Assembly: GCA_003045895.1 (NCBI GenBank)
Contig: PZPC01000011.1
Span: 1-64,000, forward strand
Direction: 5' to 3'
DNA from: Bacteroidota bacterium
Lineage (GTDB): Bacteria > Bacteroidota > Bacteroidia > Chitinophagales > Saprospiraceae
Length of the DNA: 64,000 nt
Both the position numbers and the translations under genes were made by a program. The notes under the pieces are model-generated. The model ran no database searches. It was given only the letters and a program-made list of their open reading frames with translations, and was not told where the DNA came from. The stretch's first letter is position 1. Each line of letters opens with the position of its first letter. Shown in pieces: positions 55,100 to 57,360 of this stretch.

Positions 55100-56176
55100 T
55101 TAGATCAATTTGTCGTGGTTAGCTACAATAATTTTTACCATTTCTTCAGCAGTAGCGGTTTGTAGCAACAGGTTCTCCACCACAATCAATTCCACCAAAA
55201 AATGCTCCGGGTTGAAGGCCTGGGCGTAAGAATCATTAAAGTAGAACCGGAAGTCATCAAAATTGGAGCAGCGCAACAACTGGAAGCGGTTGTTCCGGAC
55301 ATCATAAACAATAAAATAGGTAAAATGTGGGGTGAGCAGCGGACCTGGCACCTGTAGCACGACGGGGAAATCCAGATAAGAAGCCCGCAGGAGCCCAAAA
55401 AGATTGGCTTCGAAGAGGGGATACCAGTACAGCTGGCAAGGAATATCCGCAGCTTTTAACAAGGCTGTGGCGTATTCCAGTTGTTGCCGCATTTGCAGGA
55501 GCGGCGTGTCATCGTGGGCCTTTTGGCTATAAGGCTGCCAACTGCTGGATGACAATTGTAGGTATTCCACCTGCCCAATGCGTAGTTTGTAATCAAAACG
55601 CTGATAGCCAGGCACGACGTATCCCGGATAATAGTAAGTGATGCCGTGTTGCTGGCAATAATTGATCTCCTGCAGCATGGTGTAATAACCCAGACTGAAC
55701 CCCTGGTAGTCGGGGTCGTAAATGCCCAGGATACTGGCCACACTGTCTTGCCCGAGGTCAAAAAAGCTGAGTGCTACCAATCGGTCACCATCGTAAACTT
55801 GTGTTTCAAGGGTGTGATAGTGGCTGGATATTTCGCCGTCCAGGAGACTTTCCTGCAGGGAGCGGGCAATGAACCCGGGGAAATTTTGCTTGTATTTCTG
55901 GTAAAGGGCTTCTTTCTCAGGGGTAATTTCAAAGTACGAATAACGAACCGTGAAGCGATCGGCGTTCCGGCGCAATAATTTGCGTTGCGATTTTGTGAAA
56001 CGGTGTTCGTATACATTCAGTCTGATCCAGATGGCCGAATAAAGTTGGTCACCAAAACAAAGAAAATGAGTCGTAAAAATGGATTGCCCCATTCTGTACC
56101 ACCCCCTTTCCAGGTAGCTGTCCAAGTCTTCAGCTTGAAGGACTTCCGGATAATGTTTTTCTGCAAAAACAGACAT
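55100..56176 (-). CDS. Aminoacyl-tRNA-protein transferase C-domain-like protein, paralogue 2
   Basis: A 358-residue protein. The start MSVFAEKHYPEVLQ is preferred over an ATG 12 codons upstream because it gives the same length as the paralogue and aligns with it. Residues about 125-210 match the GNAT-type C-terminal domain of bacterial Bpt/eukaryotic ATE1: DGDRLVALSFFDLG, GIYDPDYQGFSLGYYTML, GITYYYPGYVVPG and FDYKLRIGQVEYL. The N-terminal part keeps FTKSQRKLLRRNADRF, which aligns with the end of the ATE N-domain, but the Cys cluster usual there is missing. A C-terminal extension of about 150 residues is not part of known ATE enzymes. True Bpt adds Leu or Arg to N-terminal residues for degradation; activity here is unproven. 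Confidence 0.75.
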   Translation of the reverse strand: MSVFAEKHYPEVLQAEDLDSYLERGWYRMGQSIFTTHFLCFGDQLYSAIWIRLNVYEHRFTKSQRKLLRRNADRFTVRYSYFEITPEKEALYQKYKQNFPGFIARSLQESLLDGEISSHYHTLETQVYDGDRLVALSFFDLGQDSVASILGIYDPDYQGFSLGYYTMLQEINYCQQHGITYYYPGYVVPGYQRFDYKLRIGQVEYLQLSSSSWQPYSQKAHDDTPLLQMRQQLEYATALLKAADIPCQLYWYPLFEANLFGLLRASYLDFPVVLQVPGPLLTPHFTYFIVYDVRNNRFQLLRCSNFDDFRFYFNDSYAQAFNPEHFLVELIVVENLLLQTATAEEMVKIIVANHDKLI

Positions 56177-56283
56177 AAATAGGAATAGGTATGAGCGGCT
56201 TGCGAAAAGCAAAGAAACAAGTTTTTTAGCAGACCTTTTGGCTTGTCAACGAAAATTTCAAGGGACCAACCAAAATTTATTAT

Positions 56284-57360
56284 TTAAATTTCTTTGGGTA
56301 CCAGCGCTTGCGCCCGGTTCTCCAACAGGTTTTTAAATTTGCTGATAAAAACCTCGGTATCGGCGGCCTGAAACAGGCATTTGTTCAATTGCAGGACATA
56401 ACGGAATAACTGCTGTTGCGAACGCACCTGATCGAAGAAGGTAACCATTCGGTCAAAGAAGCACAGCCAGCATTCGTAGCAGCCCAGGTCCAGGTTGTAG
56501 AACGCAATCCAGCATTGTTGAGGGGAGGGGCAGTTTAACAACAGAAAGGCGGGGGCATCCAACAGGCTATACGGGCCTGCATGCATCATCTTCATTTCAA
56601 AGAAAACGTATTTATACCGCTTGGCGGTCAGTCCATTTTCATAGAGTGCATCATGCAGGATTTGGGTGCGGTTAAGGAGTACCGCAAGGGGGCCGTGCTG
56701 TTGTAGCTTGAAATCAGTCAGAGACAGCCATTGGCGTTCTTGTAAATCCCAAAATTCCAGTTGACCAATCTTGGTTTTGTAATCAAAAAGAGACGTATCT
56801 GGCGATATGTAACCAGGATAGTAGTACGCCAGGCCTTGTTGGGCACACCACTCCATTTCCAGGTACATGCTGTAGAGCCCTAAGCTAAAGGACTGGTAAT
56901 CGGGGTCGTAAATGCCAGCCTTGCTGTACACACTGGCTTTGCCGACGTCGAAGAAGCTAAAAGCGATGAGCCGGTCACCGTGATAAATGCAGCACTCCAG
57001 GGTCGAGAAAATTTTGCGGCCTTCGTGTTCGAGATGAATCGCCAGATCGGGGATACTCTTCTTGGGGTGTTCCAACAAATAGCGTTCGTTCACCCGCATT
57101 TTTTCGCGGTTGATGACGGCAGGGCCAATGGTCATGCGGAAAGCTGCGCGATTTTTTCGCAGTAGTTTGCGCTGTCCTTTGCGCCATTGGTGGGTTGCCA
57201 GCAGCAGGCGGGTAGGGACTACACTGTAAATTTCACCCAACTCCACCTGAATGAAGTTAGCAGTATAAATCCGTTGGCCAAAGGGGCGCCAACCTTTGGC
57301 CAGGTAGTCGTCCAGGTCAGAACGGGTCAATCCTTGCGGACTTAAAATTGCTGAAGACAT
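56284..57360 (-). CDS. Aminoacyl-tRNA-protein transferase C-domain-like protein, paralogue 1
   Basis: A 358-residue tandem paralogue of the next gene on the strand. The start MSSAILSPQGL is preferred over an ATG 24 codons upstream by alignment with the paralogue (SDLDDYLAKGW against EDLDSYLERGW). The same ATE-like core is present: HGDRLIAFSFFDVG, GIYDPDYQSFSLGLYSMY, GLAYYYPGYISPD and FDYKTKIGQLEFWDL, after WRKGQRKLLRKNRAAF. The N-terminal Cys cluster is absent. The extension (about residues 215-358) is Cys- and aromatic-rich (LDLGCYECWLCFFDRM). The gap to the paralogue is 107 bases and to the upstream type B T9SS gene 142. Function is unknown. Confidence 0.75.
   Translation of the reverse strand: MSSAILSPQGLTRSDLDDYLAKGWRPFGQRIYTANFIQVELGEIYSVVPTRLLLATHQWRKGQRKLLRKNRAAFRMTIGPAVINREKMRVNERYLLEHPKKSIPDLAIHLEHEGRKIFSTLECCIYHGDRLIAFSFFDVGKASVYSKAGIYDPDYQSFSLGLYSMYLEMEWCAQQGLAYYYPGYISPDTSLFDYKTKIGQLEFWDLQERQWLSLTDFKLQQHGPLAVLLNRTQILHDALYENGLTAKRYKYVFFEMKMMHAGPYSLLDAPAFLLLNCPSPQQCWIAFYNLDLGCYECWLCFFDRMVTFFDQVRSQQQLFRYVLQLNKCLFQAADTEVFISKFKNLLENRAQALVPKEI

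Follow-up and report, generated by a model that had tools for sequence, protein, structure and literature searches.

A linked pair of cysteine-free ATE_C proteins with an added C-terminal domain in a Saprospiraceae bacterium, predicted to be aminoacyl-tRNA-protein transferases

As described in PMC4052509 and PMC12493166, N-terminal Lys, Arg, or Met receives Leu or Phe from Aat, Asp or Glu receives Leu from Bpt, and ClpS hands the products to ClpAP. In yeast ATE1, a CX2CXnCC metal site is described as strictly conserved and as important to enzyme stability, to RNA binding, and to substrate access (PMC10115844), and others have reported an iron-sulfur cluster at the ATE1 cysteine site that affects activity (PMC9884297). 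According to PMC10115844, helix alpha-f of ATE1 and its counterparts in FemX, L-PGS, and LFTR bear a patch of Lys and Arg residues, and transferases of the FemX/MprF type serve other acceptors than ATE does.

The window analyzed here is a stretch of 64,000 nucleotides from a member of the Saprospiraceae (GenBank assembly GCA_003045895.1, contig PZPC01000011.1, positions 1 to 64,000). On its minus strand, which carries all features of the pair given below, lie gene A (55100..56176), a candidate aminoacyl-tRNA-protein transferase of the ATE_C type, and, directly upstream of it, gene B (56284..57360), its diverged paralogue; both sets of coordinates include the stop codon. Counted from the putative start ATGs at 56176 and 57360, both proteins are 358 residues long, and 107 bases separate B from A. 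As an earlier note on this DNA had claimed, the two reading frames share the core motifs GIYDPDYQ-x-FSLG, YYYPGY, and FDYK, and the RKLLRRN segment is kept, as RKLLRRN in A and RKLLRKN in B. In a pairwise alignment, A and B are 33% identical over 345 columns (E 4e-54). The closest named contig to A is from Lewinella cohaerens (66% identity in A), and the organism is probably close to Lewinella. Compared with contig L043 of this species, codon positions 1, 2, and 3 differ by 0.28, 0.18, and 0.59 in A and by 0.37, 0.23, and 0.57 in B; when the orthologues on L043 and L044 are taken together for both genes, the divergence is 0.28-0.37, 0.18-0.29, and 0.57-0.64, respectively. Since third positions diverge far more than first and second positions, A and B are real genes under purifying selection. 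What is new in them, within a known superfamily, is a cysteine-free branch of ATE proteins that carries an additional domain and includes a pair with conserved linkage.

Family membership and predicted fold

By profile, fold, and core residues, A and B firmly belong to the ATE_C superfamily. Pfam ATE_C (PF04377, cut-off 25 bits) scored 75.9 bits in A (55559..55918) and 59.5 bits in B (56752..57066). These matches, together with the overlay of the A model on human ATE1 described below, agree with the catalytic C-domain of Bpt and ATE1 that the earlier note had recognized. ATE_N gave a weak match in A (18.3 bits, cut-off 27; profile positions 23-72 of 72), and none was listed for B in the Pfam search. 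The PDB sequence matches at E values up to 0.001 were all ATE1 or arginyltransferase chains. The best NCBIfam models were arginyltransferase models of the Bpt kind (111.3 bits for A and 84.0 for B), though the equivalog cut-off of 170 was not reached, which counts against reading the two proteins as a pair of transferases.

Bpt (an Asp/Glu leucyltransferase annotated as arginyltransferase, PRK01305) shares the ATE_C domain and the invariant core with A and B. However, all four N-domain cysteines are present in 6/6 proteobacterial Bpts collected and Bpt ends at about 240-260 residues, whereas A and B lack these cysteines, have 358 residues, and form a linked pair. Aat is also a GNAT-type aminoacyl-tRNA transferase, and its structure 2z3k matched the model of A in Foldseek (E 2.8e-4), but it belongs to another Pfam family (Leu_Phe_trans, PF03588), which was absent among the Pfam hits of A or B at E values up to 1, and the genome has a separate aat beside clpS. 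A defense-gene identity was rejected, as the PADLOC models gave no match to A or B at E values up to 0.1.

An AlphaFold model, made for A only from 33 sequences (pLDDT 89.4, pTM 0.86), firmly predicts an ATE fold. In Foldseek, ranks 1-32 were ATE1 chains, followed by MprF and the Aat enzyme. In VIA, the model aligned with human ATE1 at Z 19.4 (rmsd 3.0 A, 213 residues aligned, 22% identity, model residues 1-226) and with K. lactis and yeast ATE1 at Z 14.6-17.6. The earlier note had proposed a structure prediction with an overlay on Bpt; the overlay on ATE1 recovered the ATE1 fold of the N-domain and the GNAT domain for A, and since the alignment with human ATE1 runs from residue 1 on, the N-domain fold is retained in the model. 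The ATE1 matches leave the C-terminal domain of A uncovered.

The model of A also aligned with MprF (Z 14.0), FemX (13.1), L-PGS (12.5), and the peptide synthases Sbb17 and Sba18 (12.2). Together with the added C-terminal domain, these alignments would suit proteins that use aminoacyl-tRNA with an acceptor other than a protein N-terminus, such as a small molecule, a lipid, a peptidoglycan precursor, or an internal side chain, in the manner of FemX, MprF, or the peptide synthases. We consider such an acceptor unlikely, since ATE1 is clearly ahead in both comparisons, the ATE-specific N-domain is kept, and the few Pfam-annotated neighbors include no biosynthetic cluster. Transferases of the FemX/MprF type have the same GNAT core (Z about 13-14) but are mostly 7-14% identical over the aligned core and have no ATE N-domain.

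Acetyltransf_6 (PF13480) narrowly passed its cut-off of 22 bits in both proteins (24.1 bits in A and 28.3 in B), as ordinary acetyl-CoA-dependent GNAT acetyltransferases might. The acetyl-CoA loop of GNAT acetyltransferases has the motif Q/R-x-x-G-x-G/A. None of the 41 A- and B-type proteins has this motif in the expected region, and it is found nowhere along A or B themselves. Moreover, ATE_C gives two to three times the bits, and ATE1 heads the fold search with the model of A. On the profile and fold rankings and the absence of the loop, we rejected an acetyltransferase identity, which we regard as highly improbable.

Metal site, basic helix, and core residues

Eukaryotic ATE1 resembles the pair in its N-domain and GNAT fold, its basic tRNA helix, and its core residues, but it has the CX2CXnCC metal site that is absent from A and B. 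The N-domain of A (about residues 1-56, 56009..56176) keeps the ATE1 fold in the model without the metal-site cysteines, and they are missing as well from that of B (about residues 1-55, 57196..57360; limits from the alignment to A); in each protein, 0/4 positions hold a cysteine. The earlier note had described the cysteine cluster as lost from the pair. The absence was borne out, but it is not peculiar to the pair, and the N-domain itself is not lost, as the partial ATE_N match and the ATE1-like fold of A indicate. None of 80 Bacteroidota homologues, an uneven sample in which many were found by searching with A or its family, has more than one of the four cysteines; one of these 80 rows, L061, has a title without a phylum name but in the tree is almost the same as rows from Phaeodactylibacter. 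A single cysteine occurs in 11 of the 80, and ten of these 11 have it in the first column, where the sequence of several rows reaches back beyond the likely start. Among 296 genomes of the phylum, an even sample, ATE_N matched in eight genomes at nine places, and every match starts only at profile position 15-23. With no row above one cysteine and only partial ATE_N matches, the loss appears to be general among the sampled Bacteroidota and to predate the A/B duplication.

Since yeast ATE1 needs the metal site for stability and good RNA binding, its absence counts against the two proteins being a transferase pair. A lineage that keeps the ATE fold and the tRNA helix without the site would make the role of the site directly testable.

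The predicted basic helix covers residues 62-74 of A (55955..55993), based on the AlphaFold model and charge, and residues 61-73 of B (57142..57180), based on the alignment to A and charge. The tRNA helix of ATE1 was matched to residues 62-74 of A by sequence position, and the two helices probably correspond. The mean charge of stretch 60-74 is +5.8 in 25 A-type proteins, a group picked by hand from the tree for this and the site comparison, and also +5.8 in 16 B-type proteins, with a minimum of +4; it is +3.3 in the short Bacteroidota forms and +3.5 in Bpts. The YxGY...YK core is kept in A and B, and in an alignment of 11 rows, which includes the Sinorhizobium meliloti arginyltransferase (Bpt) and a Bernardetia protein, 13 residues are invariant: D19, G25, R52, L133, A135, D140, G163, Y183, G185, Y186, Y196, K197, and W213.

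The C-terminal domain

The approximately 150 C-terminal residues that the earlier note had called new were found to hold a domain of about 140 residues without a recognized relative by Pfam, PDB sequence, Foldseek, or VIA. It spans about residues 216-358 in A (55103..55531) and about residues 214-358 in B (56287..56721), where it is placed by alignments and a whole-family profile match. Residues from about 216 on align between A and B, and P225, Y252, F255, and P271 are nearly invariant. When residues 208-358 were modeled alone (pLDDT 87.4, pTM 0.83), they gave a helix, strands, and a closing helix. Because the region folds confidently in such a model (pLDDT 87), it probably forms a separate domain.

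Pfam gave nothing for this domain of A at E values up to 10, and 33 domain members gave scattered weak hits in one or two members, with a best E value of 0.019. A PDB sequence search found no match at E values up to 10, and the best Foldseek E values were 0.41 (PDB) and 0.19 (viral models). In VIA, Mediator (Z 6.0), phage T4 MotA (5.8), frataxin (5.0), and the YbjN-like AmyR (4.7) all had values that the tool itself classes as common. For the YbjN/type III chaperone-like fold, AmyR and YbjN (4.5) were level with unrelated rows, and a profile comparison with four Saprospiraceae YbjN sequences gave no support (probability 0.2%). The domain is thus without a clear relative in Pfam, the PDB, or the viral models, which need not mean a new fold. 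Among the matches listed from open-licence literature, no paper dealt with Bacteroidota ATE_C proteins or with this domain, which does not show its absence from print.

At least 110 residues follow the core in 68 of the 80 Bacteroidota rows. The domain profile matched in 22 of the 149 genomes of the order, at 29 places, all in frames of 271-478 residues. In the 20 loci fetched from this search, each of these frames matches A as well, and, apart from copies of earlier loci, all have a place in the core tree; thus no stand-alone form of the domain was seen in the 149 genomes. The short ATE_C proteins L023, L025, L027, L029, and L030 fall among long forms in the tree, where they are one clade with long branches. 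This placement suggests that the short clade may have lost the domain secondarily, although the long branches leave doubt. A cysteine-poor plasmid protein of Bernardetia sp. Wsw4-3y2 (WP_338791038.1, L065:2953-4014) likewise bears an extra domain at the C-terminus of a Bacteroidota ATE_C core, but that domain is DUF952 (62.8 bits, cut-off 23.7) and not that of A and B; in the tree, the fusion groups with the short Bacteroidota forms. With DUF952 in the place of the domain of A and B, the C-terminus may be an accessory module that can be exchanged.

Duplication, predicted function, and genomic context

ATE_C was matched in 18 of the 296 phylum genomes, 17 of them over the cut-off; L039 (from G072), which is below the cut-off and looks by eye like another GNAT protein, was not counted. 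A-like proteins were present in 23 of the 60 genomes of the nearest set, including the genome of the window, and a scan of genome contigs gave 21 relatives from Lewinella, Phaeodactylibacter, Saprospiraceae, other Bacteroidota, and one 'bacterium'. Viral relatives were rejected, since none of nine viral stretches that matched a pattern encodes one.

The family or Bpt profiles matched 110 open frames, of which 87 were left once near-copies were removed. After the fragment L055 3-506 was dropped, the tree was built from 86 rows (80 Bacteroidota and six Bpts) and 215 columns, with the C-terminal domain excluded. The 16 B-type rows group in one clade (support 100/98), and the A-type proteins lie in a group of 30 rows with weak support (80/74). 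In 12 of the 21 contigs, A is immediately preceded by an intact B-type gene in the same orientation, with 59-365 bases between the stop of B and the start of A. One pair member is cut by the contig end in two contigs (L055 and L063), no B lies within the 1.4-6 kb of upstream sequence in five (L045, L046, L049, L052, and L053), and the contig starts too close to A to judge in the other two (L048 and L058). Because the two genome collections overlap and some loci therefore occur twice (e.g., L004 and L043), these counts are limited to the 21 contigs of the scan. In the nearest genome set, at least two matches were found in 10 of the 23 matching genomes, and two are adjacent in eight of these ten, including G023, where the second match is cut by the contig end; G009 and G037 have unlinked copies. 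As judged from tree and gene order, the duplication is true and old and the B type is an old clade, in line with the duplicated and divergent family proposed in the earlier note.

Linkage and order have been kept even though, outside the genus, the B of the window shares only about 33-37% identity with B-type proteins, and B has a lower ATE_C score than A. One member, more likely the faster-evolving B, could thus be a non-catalytic partner or regulator in a complex. This seems somewhat less probable still than an acceptor other than a protein N-terminus, since B retains the invariant core residues and the basic helix and A is without an adjacent B in the five contigs named above.

At nine core sites, different residues prevail in A and B, including sites 27 (Y/R), 34 (F/Y), 50 (W/P), 147 (A/Y), and 149 (I/K). 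At sites 27 and 34, B agrees with all six Bpts. Site 149 is Ile in 25/25 A-type proteins, whereas 12 of the 16 B-type proteins have Lys there and four have Ser. It corresponds to residue 148 of B, at about 56917-56919, lies in a core strand, and is a candidate specificity site. As A and B fix different core residues, we infer that they may differ in donor or acceptor.

We slightly favor the prediction that A and B are two ATE/Bpt aminoacyl-tRNA-protein transferases that divide specificity between them and supply ClpS-dependent proteolysis. The ATE_C scores over the cut-off, the ATE1 ranks in the fold search, the invariant core, and the charge of the basic helix argue for transferases, and catalysis with charged tRNA is likely for both. 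The frequent placement of B just ahead of A (12 of 21 contigs), the nine differing sites, and the clpS-aat operon of the same genome also favor the prediction. The basic helix of each protein would grip the acceptor stem of a charged tRNA, and the cleft of the GNAT domain would hold the tRNA 3' end with its amino acid. This amino acid would then be joined to an amino group on a protein or peptide, which the N-domain, and probably the C-terminal domain too, would present. A and B would be a subfunctionalized pair, probably co-produced, with differing donor or acceptor preference; the tagged proteins would most likely become ClpS substrates, and the cell would thus have two N-terminal tagging enzymes in addition to Aat. 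Less probable is the fuller picture of a cysteine-free, tRNA-dependent transferase lineage with a new acceptor-recognition domain at the C-terminus, in which A and B form a two-enzyme module with different donors or acceptors and possibly a complex.

If this fuller picture is true, A and B would be a new branch of the bacterial N-terminal tagging code beside Aat, and the ATE metal cluster would be dispensable. A bacterium with the linked pair and clpS-aat would have up to three N-terminal tagging enzymes. The linked pair would also offer a natural comparison for the determinants of donor and acceptor choice.

The earlier note had suggested looking in the genome for a normal Bpt and for Aat. 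There was no ATE_C match besides A and B, and there is one aat and one clpS, which form an operon (L104:1638-2656 on contig C123 of the same genome) with ClpS (101 residues) followed on the same strand, 20 bases apart, by Aat (230 residues). ClpS is present in 18/18 genomes with an ATE_C match, but it is also present in 284 of the 296 phylum genomes, and this co-occurrence thus has no power as a test of function. The ClpA model gave three matches in the genome of the window (frames of 875-937 residues), all under its cut-off, and it is not specific, as it also matched in 14/14 control genomes. That no match passed the cut-off counts against the feeding of ClpS.

The neighbors of the pair are as the earlier note had described them: a D-2-hydroxyacid dehydrogenase gene follows A at a distance of 16 bases, and the gene upstream of B encodes a protein that bears a CHU_C signal for type IX secretion. 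The dehydrogenase, which might have been conserved with the pair, is near it in only three of the 21 related contigs (L043, L044, and L047), and a functional partnership was rejected on this ground. By Pfam annotation, none of nine neighbors common to several contigs suggests proteolysis or a biosynthetic cluster, and the missing hint of proteolysis counts against a transferase pair acting through ClpS. A protein without a Pfam match, whose start looks by eye like a signal peptide, is encoded directly upstream of the pair in seven of the 21 contigs (L050:3614-4462, with homologues in L051, L057, L059, L060, L061, and L063). Downstream of A, six of the 21 contigs encode a RoxA-like cytochrome c protein (L046:7262-8674, with homologues in L049, L050, L051, L052, and L053), which in L050 lies some 5 kb off.
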